Both the position numbers and the translations under genes were made by a program. A model generated the notes under the pieces. It worked only from the letters and a program-made list of their open reading frames with translations, had not been told where the DNA came from and did no database searches. A stretch of DNA of 49,004 nt from a virus, in the IMG/VR virus record IMGVR_UViG_3300027498_000005, positions 1 through 49,004 of that record; one strand, written 5' to 3'. Shown piece by piece: positions 11,300 to 49,004 of this stretch. Position 1 is the stretch's first letter. Every line of letters starts with the position of its first letter.

Positions 11300-11301
11300 C
11301 A

Positions 11302-36963: not shown

Positions 36964-39798
36964 ATGAGCTACGTAAAGATTGAAGATATAATGAACGCCA
37001 CAGAGGGCGGTCTAAATATAATAGCTATTTATTATCCAGATGCACCGCATGCATTGTCTAAAAAGAGTAAAAAATTTAAAGCTCGTAGAGATGAAAAAAC
37101 AGCATCTGCTAGTATTAGACAAAAAGAAAATGGGTGGTATTATGTTACGGATTATGGTGGAGATAGTAAAGAACGTAATGCAGTAGAGCTATGTATGTTT
37201 GAGGAAGGCTTGTCTTTTGGTGAAGCCTGTGCAGAGCTTGGCGCTCGTTTTAGTATTACTGGAGCTAAATCTACTTCCATATTAGCAAAACCTATTATTA
37301 CCAAAAGGGAAAGAACAGAAGAGGAAGTTCCTGGTACTTATGTTTTTGAATTTAAAGATTTCACAGAGAAAGAATTAGCGGTAATAGGTCCTAAAGTAAC
37401 GGATAAACATTGCTTCGATTTTCAATTTAAAAGCTTAAAATCATTCAGTTATATAAAAGAAACGGAAGTCATTACTTCTGAAGCTACAGAAAACTATCCT
37501 ATTTTTTCTTTTCACCACGAAACTTGGCAGAAAATTTACCAACCATTAAATATAGATAAAGGGTTTAGATTTCGCTATGCTGGCCAAAAACCAAAAAAGT
37601 TTATACACGGTTTAGATGCGTTAAGAAAAGAATACAACAGAATAAAAGAAGCGTATGAAGAAGACTACCAAGATAATGGTAAAAAAAGTAAACTTCCTAA
37701 AAAAGTAGATGCTTGTTATTTAGTATCTGGAGGTTCAGACGGATTAAATTTAAAGTCTTTTGGGTATTTCCCATTGTGGTTAAATAGTGAGAGTGAGCAC
37801 TTAGATTGGAAAGAGTTTAAGGATATATCTTCTATGGTTGCAACCATTTATTACATAGCAGATTTAGATGCTACAGGGGTGTCACAAGCTATTCAAGTGG
37901 GACTTAAGTTTTTAGACATACGATTGGTTTGGTTGCCTAAATCGTTATTAAAGTTTAGAGATAAGAGGGGGAATCCTAGAAAGGATTTAAAAGACTTGGT
38001 ACTGGCTTATTATAACGAAAAGTTTCCTGGTTCTTTTAGTAAGCTTCTAAAATCTTTAATAGAAGATGCGGTTCCTATGAAATTCTGGGGAGAAATAACT
38101 ACAGATCAAGGAACTAAGTATGTTTTTAAAAACACTAGAGCATATCATTTCCTGCAGCACCTCGGATTTGGAAGATATGAGAACCAAAACAGTAAAGAAG
38201 GTTATGTGTGGATACGTTCCCACCATGGAATAGTAAAAATTGTTCGTCCTGTAGATGTTAAAGGTTTTGTAACCAATTTTCTTATAGAACGCAGAATGAA
38301 CGAGGATTTAAAAGATGTTATCTACAAAACCTCGCAATTAAGTGAATCTAGCTTATCAAACTTACCTTATGTAGAGTTAGATTTTACAGATGCAGATAAA
38401 GATAGTCAGCATTTATTTTTTCAGAATGAGGTTTGGAAAGTTACGGCTGATGGCATTGAGAAAATAAAGTATGAAAACGTAAAGTGTTTGTCCTGGGAAG
38501 AAAAAGTGGTAGACAAAAAAGTGCGATTAGAAACACCGCATTTTGAAATTAAAAAAGACGCACACGGAGACTGGGATATAGATATACTAGAGAAAGACAA
38601 TCAATTTCTTAATTATCTAATAAATACTAGTAGGGTGCATTGGAAAAAAGATTTAGAAGATGGTTTTGGAAAGCACCAACAGTTAGCTGCAGAAAAATAT
38701 GCACAAGAACACAAATTTAATATTGCGGGCCCTAATCTTTCTCCAGATGAAGTATTAGAACAAAAATTACATCTAATAAATAAAATTTTCACCTTGGGGT
38801 ATATGCTCCATAAATATAAGAATCCGGCTAAACCCTGGGCACCTTATGCAATGGATCATAAGATTGCAGATATATCAGAAAGTCATGGGGGTAGTGGTAA
38901 ATCGGTTTTCTTAAAATCTATTCAATATATATTAAAAGATAACCATTACATAAATGGTAGGGACCGTAAAAAAACGCAAGATGATTTTATTTACCATGGC
39001 GTAACAGAAGATACCGATTATTTGTTGGTAGATGATTGCCATGCGTATATGGATTATGGCTTCTTCTTTAATGCCATTACCGGTGATTTAGATGTGAATA
39101 ATAAAAATGGTTTGCGATATATAATTCCGTTTGCTAAATCTCCTAAAGTTGCATTTGCAAGTAATTTTCCCCCAAATAATTTAGACCCTTCTTTAGAACG
39201 TAGATTGTTGTTTGTCGTATTCTCGGATTATTACCACTACAATAAAGATGGGGAGTATAACCAGACTAGGATTATATCCGATGATTTTGATGGCAAATCG
39301 TTGTTTTTAGATTTTGATGAAAAACAATGGAATAAAGTTTTGAATTTCTTAGCACAATGCCTTCAGTTTTATTTGTCGCAAACAGGAAAAATAGACCCTC
39401 CTATGGAAAACGTAGAGAAGCGAAATCTTTTAAAAGAAATGGGAGATCAATTCCATTCCTGGGCAGATGGTTTTTTTAGTTTAGTAAAAGACAACGGAGA
39501 TAAAAGAAATTTAGATGATGCGGTAAGTAAAGCTTATGCTACTGGGCATTTTGAAAAAAATACCAATATTAAAAAGTGGACTTCTAATAAATTCAAAAAA
39601 GCCTTAAAAGCATATGCAAAGTATAACGGATGGATTTTTAATCCTACAGATGTTGCACCTAATAATAGAATTATAAAAAAGGTAGATGGGGAGTCTGTAG
39701 AGCATTTTTATATCCGAACAAAAAAAGGGGAAGAAAAAACGGAGTTAAAACCAGACAACTGGACAGAAGAGGATACTAACATAGATGATAATTTTTAA
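36964..39798 (+). CDS. Primase-helicase fusion (TOPRIM-like + SF3-type helicase)
   Basis: 944 residues. N-terminus (about 15-95) resembles the DnaG-type fold around the zinc-binding domain (KFKARRDEKTASASIRQ, GWYYVTDYGG) but lacks the zinc cysteines. A TOPRIM-like part follows (YLVSGGSDGLNL near 250, YYIADLDATG near 297), in which the usual catalytic Glu of the first motif is not seen. Walker A GGSGKSVFL near 640 and Walker B DYLLVDDC near 685 define an SF3/DUF5906-like helicase. Central replication protein of the phage. Confidence 0.85.
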   Translation: MSYVKIEDIMNATEGGLNIIAIYYPDAPHALSKKSKKFKARRDEKTASASIRQKENGWYYVTDYGGDSKERNAVELCMFEEGLSFGEACAELGARFSITGAKSTSILAKPIITKRERTEEEVPGTYVFEFKDFTEKELAVIGPKVTDKHCFDFQFKSLKSFSYIKETEVITSEATENYPIFSFHHETWQKIYQPLNIDKGFRFRYAGQKPKKFIHGLDALRKEYNRIKEAYEEDYQDNGKKSKLPKKVDACYLVSGGSDGLNLKSFGYFPLWLNSESEHLDWKEFKDISSMVATIYYIADLDATGVSQAIQVGLKFLDIRLVWLPKSLLKFRDKRGNPRKDLKDLVLAYYNEKFPGSFSKLLKSLIEDAVPMKFWGEITTDQGTKYVFKNTRAYHFLQHLGFGRYENQNSKEGYVWIRSHHGIVKIVRPVDVKGFVTNFLIERRMNEDLKDVIYKTSQLSESSLSNLPYVELDFTDADKDSQHLFFQNEVWKVTADGIEKIKYENVKCLSWEEKVVDKKVRLETPHFEIKKDAHGDWDIDILEKDNQFLNYLINTSRVHWKKDLEDGFGKHQQLAAEKYAQEHKFNIAGPNLSPDEVLEQKLHLINKIFTLGYMLHKYKNPAKPWAPYAMDHKIADISESHGGSGKSVFLKSIQYILKDNHYINGRDRKKTQDDFIYHGVTEDTDYLLVDDCHAYMDYGFFFNAITGDLDVNNKNGLRYIIPFAKSPKVAFASNFPPNNLDPSLERRLLFVVFSDYYHYNKDGEYNQTRIISDDFDGKSLFLDFDEKQWNKVLNFLAQCLQFYLSQTGKIDPPMENVEKRNLLKEMGDQFHSWADGFFSLVKDNGDKRNLDDAVSKAYATGHFEKNTNIKKWTSNKFKKALKAYAKYNGWIFNPTDVAPNNRIIKKVDGESVEHFYIRTKKGEEKTELKPDNWTEEDTNIDDNF

Positions 39799-42270: not shown

Positions 42271-42852
42271 ATGAAAACAATGAAATCAAAAATGCGTCCT
42301 CCAACAAAATATTACGGAGGAAAAGTAAGGATGATGCCTTATATATTGCCTCTAGTTCCTGAACATAGAATATATATTGAACCTTTTGCTGGAGGTGCCA
42401 CTTTATTTTGGGCTAAAGAACCAAGTAAAATTGAAGTTCTTTCTGATATAAATGAAAATGTGACTAATTTTTATAAGGTAATGAAGCTTGATTTCAATAA
42501 TTTGATTTTACAAATACAAGCTACATTGCACTGTGAAGGTACTTTTAATAAAGCTAAATATATTTACAATAACCCACAGGGCTATACTTCTGTAGAGAGA
42601 GCTTGGGCATATTTTGTTAGTTGTAATATGAGTTACGGAGGAGAAGCTGCCGGAAGTTTTCAGTGGGTTCGTAATAAAACAGATAATTGGCATCCTGCTA
42701 TAAGCATTCATAATAGAAGAAATGAATTTAAACTATATGAAGGTCGTTTGGATAAAGTAAGTATCAGGGACCGTAAGGCTGAAATATTAATTCCAGACAT
42801 GGATTCACGAGATGCTTTTTTTTTATTGCGACCCTCCATATGTTGGAGCTAG
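42271..42852 (+). CDS. dam: Dam-type adenine methylase, N-terminal frame (broken at a T9 run)
   Basis: 193 residues before an early stop. KYYGGKVRMMPYILPLVP and EPFAGGATLF (37-46, motif I) are typical of Dam/D12-class N6-adenine methylases. Within T9 at 42816-42824 the frame changes: with 8 T (or 11) the sequence would run DAFFYCDPPYVGARQG, placing the catalytic DPPY right after the run. As given, this frame ends in an unrelated 9-residue tail and lacks catalysis. Either an assembly error, a phase-variable tract, or slippage during expression. Confidence 0.75.
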   Translation: MKTMKSKMRPPTKYYGGKVRMMPYILPLVPEHRIYIEPFAGGATLFWAKEPSKIEVLSDINENVTNFYKVMKLDFNNLILQIQATLHCEGTFNKAKYIYNNPQGYTSVERAWAYFVSCNMSYGGEAAGSFQWVRNKTDNWHPAISIHNRRNEFKLYEGRLDKVSIRDRKAEILIPDMDSRDAFFLLRPSICWS

Positions 42853-43075
42853 ACAAGGTCATTATGCAGGATATAATCAAGAGGATTTTAGTTTGTTACT
42901 TAAGGTATTGGCTAAACTACAAGGAAAGTTTTTATTGTCTTCTTATAAGAATGAAGAGCTGTTTCAGATGACATCGGATTTAGGTTGGAAAAGTAAAAAA
43001 ATAGAGCAAAGGCTTGGTGTTTCTGGAGGAATAGGACGTAAAGAAGAAATATTAACATGGAATTATAGTGTATAA
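42812..43075 (+). CDS. dam: Dam-type adenine methylase, C-terminal frame with DPPY
   Basis: 87 residues from an ATG at 42812 inside the upstream frame, continuing the methylase in another frame: MLFFYCDPPYVGARQGHY holds catalytic motif IV, and LLSSYKNEELFQMTSD and the end WNYSV complete the family. Together the two frames cover a whole enzyme of about 270 residues. The ATG is probably not used as a start; the pieces are one gene split at the T run. Confidence 0.75.
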   Translation: MLFFYCDPPYVGARQGHYAGYNQEDFSLLLKVLAKLQGKFLLSSYKNEELFQMTSDLGWKSKKIEQRLGVSGGIGRKEEILTWNYSV

Positions 43076-46659: not shown

Positions 46660-46706
46660 CACCAAGATAAAAAGCGTTTTTTCATGCTTTTTTATCGACT
46701 GTTAGC
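46654..46706 (+). repeat. attC-like site 4 (compact)
   Basis: Left boxes GGCTAACA (46654) and GATAAAAAGC (46666); right boxes GCTTTTTTATC (46686), spacer GAC, TGTTAGC (46700). Outer boxes pair 7 of 7 (GCTAACA/TGTTAGC), inner boxes all but one inserted base, spacers CCAA and GAC unpaired. It is the clearest attC-like fold here, about 53 bases. It could alternatively serve as a terminator hairpin. Confidence 0.6.
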
Positions 46707-46859
46707 TGGAGTATGACGCAGCCTGTAAGAGCGAGTAATATTCCATTTCTAGAACGCTTGGGTTTACTGCAGACGAAGGATCAAACAGTTGCAGTTAGGA
46801 ATCCTTGCACTAAATAAAACTTTAGAGAACTAAGACCAAGTAAATACAAACGTTCCCCC
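46707..46859. other. Non-coding stretch after the last cassette gene
   Basis: No gene or RNA recognised. It begins CTGGAGTATGACGCAG, similar to CTGGAGTAATGTCATA that follows attC-like site 1 (TGTTA[T/G]CTGGAGTA shared), which supports the idea of a common junction. Confidence 0.4.
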
Positions 46860-46884
46860 AACCACCTTTTTAGGTGGTTTTTTT
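46860..46884 (+). terminator. Terminator ending the cassette region
   Basis: AACCACCT / AGGTGGTT with a 4-base loop, then a T run. It insulates the array from the tail-fibre promoter region. A second inverted repeat GTTGTAG / CTACAAC follows at 46889-46914. Confidence 0.85.
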
Positions 46885-47002
46885 ATGCGTTGTAGACTTT
46901 TTTAAGGCTACAACACCTTATATCTTTTACGCACACGAACCCACTGTCCTAATCGCATACATTAACCCCCTCATACTCCCCCTTCTTCTAGTAAAAAATA
47001 AC

Positions 47003-47309
47003 TGTAACTTTGTAACCATTAGCAAAAAACCTCGGTAGATACTAATATACAAGGTTACAGTTTTGTATTGAAATCTTTAACTAGGTTACAAAAAAACTGT
47101 AACCTTTAGTAAAGGTTACAGTTTCTACAAAAATCATAAAAACTTATATCCTTAAAACTGTAGTTTTTAAATACTTAATAATCAATGCGTTAAACCCTTC
47201 GGTTACAAAGTTACAGAGTTACAAAAAAAAAGCAACTAGATAGAGGCTACAGAAAAGTTATTAGAATACACAAATATTCTATATAGAATATTTATTTGTT
47301 CATGTTACA
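47003..47309. repeat. Array of GTTACA boxes
   Basis: GTTACA occurs seven times forward (47054, 47085, 47115, 47202, 47210, 47218, 47304) and three times reversed (TGTAAC at 47003, 47011, 47098). Three forward copies sit in tandem at exact 8-base steps; two reverse copies are also 8 apart. CTGTAACCTTT / AAAGGTTACAG at 47097-47121 is a perfect palindrome with 11-base arms. The last copy is the promoter element of the tail-fibre unit. Candidate activator-binding array, replication iterons or partition site. Confidence 0.75.
47272..47293. promoter_or_regulatory. Perfect 22-bp palindrome before late promoter copy 5
   Basis: Arms AAATATTCTAT / ATAGAATATTT, ending 9 bases before TGTTACA. Pure A/T apart from one C/G pair. 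Probably an operator for a dimeric regulator. Confidence 0.5.
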
Positions 47310-47338
47310 GGTTATTATACACAAAATCGACTATTTTG
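47303..47338 (+). promoter_or_regulatory. Late promoter element, copy 5 (before tail-fibre operon)
   Basis: TGTTACA at 47303-47309, 21 bases, CTATTTTG at 47331-47338 (four of six fixed positions; TATTTTG with one base fewer also fits). The ATG at 47358 follows after 19 bases. It would drive the operon through the join to about 7300. Confidence 0.65.
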
Positions 47339-47357: not shown

Positions 47358-47861
47358 ATGCTAGTATCAGATCGTGTTTATAACAATCCGCATATATGTG
47401 GTATTCAGGTAGATTTATCTGCAAAGGAATTTGCTTCGGGTAATTTTGATGTGCAGCCATTTTATAATACCAATATATCTGAAGGAAATTTTAAGAAGGT
47501 ATATTATTCTATTGGTAGTGCCTCTTTTAAAGAAACTACTTCGCAAAATAGCTCTGGAATATTATTTAAGCAAAAAGTAACTATTAAGTTGCCTTCTTTA
47601 GATAAGAATAGGTCCCAAAGGATAGAGGAATTTAGAAAAATTAAGTTCCTGGCAATAAAATTATCAGACGGTAAAAAAATAATCTTAGGAAGAAATGATT
47701 TTTTTGTAAATGCAAAACCGCGTATAAGTATAAGTTCTACCGAAAAAAGTAGCCAGATTCAATTTACCACCTATTCTATTTTTCCAGTTGGTTTTTTTGA
47801 AGGAACCGCGGCCTATGGTTACGTTTATGAATTACCAATTTCATTTTTAGAAAACATATAG
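47358..47861 (+). CDS. Tail-associated structural protein
   Basis: 167 residues, beta-rich (NPHICGIQVDLSAKEFASGN, IKFLAIKLSDGKKIILGRND). First gene behind promoter copy 5 and upstream of tail-fibre genes, so a tail or baseplate attachment part is likely. No motif identified. Confidence 0.65.
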   Translation: MLVSDRVYNNPHICGIQVDLSAKEFASGNFDVQPFYNTNISEGNFKKVYYSIGSASFKETTSQNSSGILFKQKVTIKLPSLDKNRSQRIEEFRKIKFLAIKLSDGKKIILGRNDFFVNAKPRISISSTEKSSQIQFTTYSIFPVGFFEGTAAYGYVYELPISFLENI

Positions 47862-48437: not shown

Positions 48438-49004
48438 AAAAAATATTTTTTGCAATAGTATTATTGTTATCTGCAGTACTTTCTGCTCAAATAGATGTTT
48501 CTGGACCTACAGATGGCACTTTGTTAAGTCCTTTGCCTTCTGCAGTCTTAAACGGATTATCTTCTCCTAGAGAAGGTTTATTGGTTGGTAATTCTACTAC
48601 AAAAACGTTATGGTATTTTAATGGTACCGAGTTTGTAGATTTAATGGAGTCTAACCAACTAACAGAAACACAAGTAGATGATTTTGTAGCCAACAACGGT
48701 TATTTAACTACAGAAGTGGACGGTAGTACAACGAATGAGTTACAAGACTTAACTTTTAGCGGCACAACTTTAGGATTAAGTAATAGCGCAACTTCTTTTG
48801 ATTTGTCGGGAATTCTAAGCACACCAACGCTCTCACAAGTTCTTAGTGAAGGTAACAGTGCGGCAGGCAGTAGTATATCTAACGTAGAAACTCTTGGGGT
48901 TACAAGTGTGTTTTTAGGTTCTTCGGACGGAACACAAGGAGGTATATTTTTTTACTATCCTAATACTTCGATAAATCCTTTTTCTAATGGAAATTTAGGC
49001 AATG
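48434..49004 (+). CDS. Tail fibre/adhesin, N-terminal part (continues at base 1)
   Basis: 190 full codons, open to the window end. Begins with a Sec-type signal peptide (MKKIFFAIVLLLSAVLSAQ), then a tail-fibre-like sequence (LPSAVLNGLSSPREGLLVGN, TTKTLWYFNGTEFVDLMESN, ELQDLTFSGTTLGLSNSATS) characteristic of flavobacterial phage and surface proteins. In a circular molecule it continues without break to 1685. Confidence 0.8.
   Translation, partial: MKKIFFAIVLLLSAVLSAQIDVSGPTDGTLLSPLPSAVLNGLSSPREGLLVGNSTTKTLWYFNGTEFVDLMESNQLTETQVDDFVANNGYLTTEVDGSTTNELQDLTFSGTTLGLSNSATSFDLSGILSTPTLSQVLSEGNSAAGSSISNVETLGVTSVFLGSSDGTQGGIFFYYPNTSINPFSNGNLGN

Follow-up and report, generated by a model that had tools for sequence, protein, structure and literature searches.

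It has been shown that the C-terminal domain of SaPI Rep and of SCCmec Cch2 binds the iterons of the origin (PMC7581432), and that a winged helix of P4 alpha binds the origin repeats (PMC4234260). Human RFX1 (hRFX1) reads DNA with the wing of its winged helix in the major groove (PMC8998557, PMC2533330), and its half-site is GTNRCC (PMC3414849). A literature search, which was of incomplete coverage, returned no described origin for the phage group studied here. In a temperate Bacteroidota phage we found an array of GTTACA boxes that is very probably the replication origin of the phage, with iterons bound by the phage's own primase-helicase.

The window, which is the whole stretch of DNA analysed here, is the 49,004-bp IMG/VR virus contig IMGVR_UViG_3300027498_000005. 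In this phage, as in Rep of SaPI5 and SaPIbov1 and in SCCmec Cch2, a predicted D5/SaPI5-type helicase is fused to a primase and carries a predicted C-terminal DNA-binding domain, and the putative origin is built of short iterons. However, the primases of SaPIs belong to the AEP type, whereas the window enzyme is of the TOPRIM type, and SaPI origins lie directly downstream of rep, whereas the candidate origin is located 7.2 kb away from the primase gene. Since it is not directly behind rep, we describe the locus as working like a SaPI or P4 origin and do not file it as a SaPI origin. A TOPRIM primase, a helicase and a C-terminal winged helix in one polypeptide are also found in P4 alpha, and multiple short iterons together with A+T-rich DNA, as in the P4-alpha/SaPI-Rep type, are present in the window. 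Unlike in P4, the repeat word is a different one and belongs to a Bacteroidota-wide family in which the words drift together with the enzyme. The origins of iteron plasmids (RepE, pi, TrfA) share direct repeats, A+T-rich DNA and IHF-like sites with the array. Their initiators, however, are winged-helix Rep proteins without a fused primase-helicase, which load the host helicase, whereas the proposed reader in the window is a primase-helicase of 944 aa.

The record probably represents a complete, circularly assembled genome, since its two ends have GCAATG in common (1-6 and 48999-49004) and a reading frame crosses the join. Using a Pfam scan of ten window proteins, we found that the phage encodes an integrase. 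The phage's terminase shares 59% identity with its counterpart in Flavobacterium phage laban6-1; for its primase and that of Polaribacter phage Leef_1 the value is 46%. Phage records showed no similarity to the window at the DNA level, a tail-gene search of IMG/VR returned no close relatives, and scanning the window for Rfam families and tRNAs gave no matches. The array is flanked by two operons (Table 1): the early one ends ahead of it, with a terminator-like hairpin at 46860, and the structural one begins behind it, at 47358. Between the last early gene and this hairpin, about 200 bp (46660-46860) are non-coding; Rfam gave no match for this segment, which is possibly a transcript leader or a small RNA. 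Further upstream (42271-43075), a gene for a D12-class adenine methyltransferase is apparently split into two overlapping frames, 42271-42852 and 42812-43075, with the DPPY motif in the second one. This appears to be a frameshift or a sequencing error.

All ten exact GTTACA boxes reported in the sequence-only reading are present at the positions given there. The count between 46980 and 47330 is far above that of shuffled sequence, the comparison proposed at the time, as 2000 dinucleotide shuffles of this segment contained 0.46 boxes on average and 5 at most. Outside the cluster, no 307-bp window of the record holds more than two boxes, and genome-wide the word is only mildly enriched (41 observed, 28 expected). 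The GTTACA signal is local, not genome-wide. Nine of the ten boxes form a compact element of 231 bp, while the tenth (47304) is part of a distinct late-promoter motif. The tandem triplet at 8-base steps is real. It is matched on the left by a reverse pair; the 16 bp at 47002-47017 are, without any mismatch, the reverse complement of 47201-47216. The four middle boxes occur in both orientations, two of them within a palindrome. This palindrome had been described as lying at 47097-47121 with 11-base arms; it exists, but its arms measure 15 nt each (47094-47108 and 47110-47124) around a 1-nt loop. GC skew, also suggested as a check for an origin, shows no reversal at the array; it is dominated by gene direction and hence speaks neither for nor against an origin.

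Table 1. Features of the window discussed in the text (strand "." where a feature has no direction).
Feature	Position	Strand	Remarks
Primase-helicase, 944 aa, proposed initiator	36964..39798	+	predicted domains: TOPRIM primase, residues ~124-372; SF3/D5-type helicase, ~387-818; C-terminal winged helix, ~845-920
Codons R902-I903-I904-K905-K906, wing strand	39667..39681	+	every second residue covaries with a box position (902 with 5, 904 with 3, 906 with 1)
Terminator-like hairpin	46860..46879	+	closes early operon, precedes proposed origin
Proposed replication origin	46993..47223	.	231 bp, 27% GC; nine iterons on both strands, at 47003 (-), 47011 (-), 47054 (+), 47085 (+), 47098 (-), 47115 (+), 47202 (+), 47210 (+), 47218 (+); comparable arrays in relatives
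Left inverted tandem box pair TGTAACTTTGTAAC, 8-bp step	47003..47016	-
Middle iteron GTTACA	47054..47059	+
Middle iteron GTTACA	47085..47090	+
Palindrome, 15-nt arms	47094..47124	.	holds iterons 47098-47103 (-) and 47115-47120 (+)
A+T-rich spacer, candidate unwinding region	47121..47201	.	81 bp, 25% GC
IHF-consensus-like site AATCAATGCGTTA (consensus WATCAANNNNTTR)	47180..47192	+
Right tandem box triplet, 8-bp steps	47202..47223	+
Late-promoter upstream element CATGTTACA	47301..47309	+	holds tenth GTTACA (47304, +); TATTTTG at 47332-47338
First structural-operon gene	47358..47861	+	homologue in Flavobacterium phages 6H and laban6-1

The C-terminal winged helix of the primase-helicase was modelled by AlphaFold2 with a pLDDT of 89, with a wing strand at residues 903-907 and a recognition helix at 874-887. 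The best match of the full-length model was the SaPI5 primase-helicase (Foldseek E 1e-11; Z 19.9 over residues 373-912), followed by poxvirus D5, and residues 124-372 matched the T7 and DnaG primases (T7 primase, Z 15.8). The predicted fold suggests a hexameric-type SF3/D5 helicase fused with a primase. Pfam assigned the window primase to no family, and DUF5906 was recognised in 26 of 50 relatives; a sequence search against solved structures with the primase gave no credible match. For the winged helix alone, Foldseek returned nothing at E<=0.001. The best solved matches of this domain were the modest ones to RFX5 (Z 7.1) and hRFX1-DNA (Z 6.7). Z values below 8 can reflect a common arrangement only. 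We read the resemblance as a possible likeness in working and claim no kinship. RFX proteins are eukaryotic transcription factors, unlike the phage enzyme; the half-site of hRFX1 on the X box is close to GTTACA. The P4 origin-binding domain was not among the structural matches, which excludes nothing. Overall, the enzyme appears to possess a C-terminal double-stranded-DNA-binding domain in the form of a predicted winged helix, the wing of which covaries with the boxes, as described below.

The window primase-helicase served as query for a training set of 160 loci that encode such an enzyme; besides the window itself, these come from IMG/VR contigs, Bacteroidota genomes and annotated phage records. 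Arrays were detected by a de novo hexamer scan that was blind to the box word, and the words were called by hexamer enrichment because EM motif fitting drifted on the near-palindromic boxes. About 139 of the 160 loci carry a downstream array with an assigned word, and the misses are mostly loci without downstream sequence (contig ends). The word is mostly GTTACA, but ATTACA, GTCACA, GTAACA, GTTTCA, GTCTCA, CTTACA, GATACA and GTTAAK also occur. Despite this drift the layout is constant, with a median of 9 boxes over a median span of 244 bp. Neighbouring boxes of the same direction are most commonly spaced by 8 bp; a left pair in reverse orientation at 8 or 9 bp was found in 61/94 loci and a right pair in forward orientation in 52/94. 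The distance between array and primase ranges from 0.1 to 9 kb in relatives. The sequence-only reading had named a lack of conserved box positions in related phages as an observation that would speak against it. We found the opposite, since the location of the box arrays is conserved in the nearest relatives; in Leef_1, an ATTACA array occupies the corresponding gap. Cellulophaga phage Ingeline has a GTTCCA array with 8-bp steps.

As a control, 9-kb stretches on both sides of the primase were compared, and strong repeats (score at least 9) were present in 9/51 upstream versus 38/51 downstream stretches. Since upstream stretches score as well, the array score alone is not unique. No array was detected at about 8 distinct training loci and nine held-out loci in spite of more than 9 kb of downstream sequence (among them L040/L100, L111, L114, L115, L122, L143, L168, L170, L206 and L292). 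Several of the array-less loci have an altered wing strand, e.g. GKHTR in L111 and GVSIR in L143. Where the C-terminus of the primase is a different, unrelated one, arrays with 8-9 bp steps and other words (GTTCCA, GTTGAG) are likewise present (L005, 22620-22840; L003, 3869-4027). The layout may therefore be more general than this enzyme family.

For 105 primases sharing less than 90% identity, we calculated, per box position, the information excess of ~890-897 alignment columns. Column 906 best explained position 1 (G or A), with an excess of 0.588 bits compared with 0.235 bits for the next best column. The top columns were 904 for position 3 alone, 902 for position 5 (C or A) and 875 for positions 8 and 9. 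Residues 902, 904 and 906 are alternate residues of one predicted wing strand. In the training set, K or R at 906 goes with G at position 1 in 74/75 cases and other residues with A in 17/18. R902 goes with C at position 5 in 100/100 cases and is missing in all five GTTAA phages.

Four further scans provided a held-out set of 75 primases, each less than 90% identical to any earlier one, and arrays were found for 65 of them. Here, K/R906 occurred with G in 33/33 cases and other 906 residues with non-G in 28/29 (Fisher 8e-17), the single exception (L172) being a mixed GTTACA/ATTACA array. R902 was accompanied by C in 60/60 cases and non-R902 by non-C in 4/4; the loss of R902 rests on two to three events. 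Columns 906 and 902 again ranked first. A new word, ATCACA, was seen in the held-out set only, and both phages carrying it have S906 and Q904, which is what the residue-base pattern predicts. Moreover, CTTACA pairs with W906 in a training case as well as in a held-out case. The link between position 3 and residue 904 was weak in the held-out set, where 904 was not the top column and Q904 also accompanied TATACA in five arrays and GTAACA in one.

Since covariation was computed on primase columns only, another phage protein might read the boxes, with primase residues changing alongside through joint inheritance. Such linkage would spread the signal across columns, whereas single wing residues stand far above the ~890 others. 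In a tree of 170 enzyme bodies from which the C-terminal domain had been excluded, the word switched at position 1 on 23 branches and K/R906 on 25, and 20 branches were shared (p 1e-24). With co-change on 20 of 23 branches, we consider a different reader highly improbable.

The sequence-only reading had assigned the GTTACA core to five late promoters and had proposed one protein for these and the array. We found four exact sites, CATGTTACA at 11300, 17982, 25988 and 47301, all of which contain TTCATGTTACA. This longer element is found as single copies, each followed after about 35 nt by TATTKGG or TATTTTG; a common reader is unsupported. Among relatives, it was found 3' of the array and ahead of the tail operon only in the closest ones, whereas the array itself is phylum-wide. 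The position of the array directly upstream of the structural operon and the presence of GTTACA in four late promoters would fit an enhancer of the tail-operon promoter, read by a late activator common to the other late promoters. However, the word and primase residues change in step at many independent switches, the promoter sites share the longer TTCATGTTACA, and in many Bacteroidales the array lies only 0.1-0.5 kb behind the primase. In laban6-1, a GTTGAG array likewise follows the phage's own primase, five genes before the tail operon. An enhancer role is therefore very unlikely.

Covariation tells which protein reads the boxes, not what binding brings about. The primase-helicase may thus read the array mainly for copy control or titration, comparable to crr of P4, with the true origin elsewhere; P4 has a second iteron region besides its origin. 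We regard this as unlikely, since de novo scans usually found one dominant array per locus and since this array carries A+T-rich spacers and IHF-like sites, as is typical of origins. Sites with the E. coli IHF consensus WATCAANNNNTTR are present in 46/166 arrays, whereas shuffles led us to expect 5.2 and random segments taken from these loci 4.1. They favour two places, one per spacer. Centromeres, too, show short boxes clustered in inverted and direct orientation, and a parS-like site for a ParB-type protein of the phage would be a further candidate. It is extremely improbable, as the phage encodes an integrase, the box specificity follows the primase wing, and no partition protein was recognised by Pfam among the ten window proteins scanned. 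Hence, among the functions offered by the sequence-only reading, a replication origin with iterons and a single reader is strongly supported, and covariation points to the primase-helicase as that reader; the part of the reading that extended it to the late promoters is unsupported.

From the array, its conservation, its association with the enzyme, the covariation and the predicted domains, we infer the following mode of action. Several copies of the primase-helicase would bind the GTTACA iterons directly via the C-terminal winged helix. The wing strand would lie in the major groove, where R902, I904 and K906 would read base pairs 5, 3 and 1; alternating strand residues that read every second base pair are what is expected of a strand in this groove. 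The 3' flank (positions 8-10) may be contacted by residue 875, with which the recognition helix starts. Because the tandem boxes at the two outer ends are oppositely directed, binding would place two helicase assemblies so that they flank the A+T-rich DNA, perhaps assisted by an IHF/HU-type bend. The helicase would then open the DNA, and the fused TOPRIM domain would prime both forks, giving a bidirectional start.

The pattern may amount to a wing code of one residue per base pair (906 for base pair 1, 904 for 3 and 902 for 5), in which single substitutions have repeatedly changed origin specificity across Bacteroidota phages and created incompatibility-like replication groups, with convergence on an RFX-like reading and a near-RFX half-site. 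We put the chances of this wider view at about even. The data provide a recognisable candidate origin and initiator for phages and prophages of Bacteroidota (Flavobacteriia, Cytophagia, Sphingobacteriia, Bacteroidia) that form a large and apparently undescribed group, together with a residue-to-base rule that can be checked with natural proteins. How initiator and origin change together without loss of function is a long-standing replicon question, for which these phages offer a natural series.

A clade with TATACA boxes (L265, L269, L274, L277, L278, L287, L288, L294), which often lie inside palindromic TGTATACA, mostly has Q904 and is without K/R906; it breaks the rule for position 3. Two loci contain, besides their ATTACA array, eight CGACCA repeats in a stretch of 90 bp at ~1.15 kb 3' of the primase (L024, 8317-8406; L035, 10046-10135).
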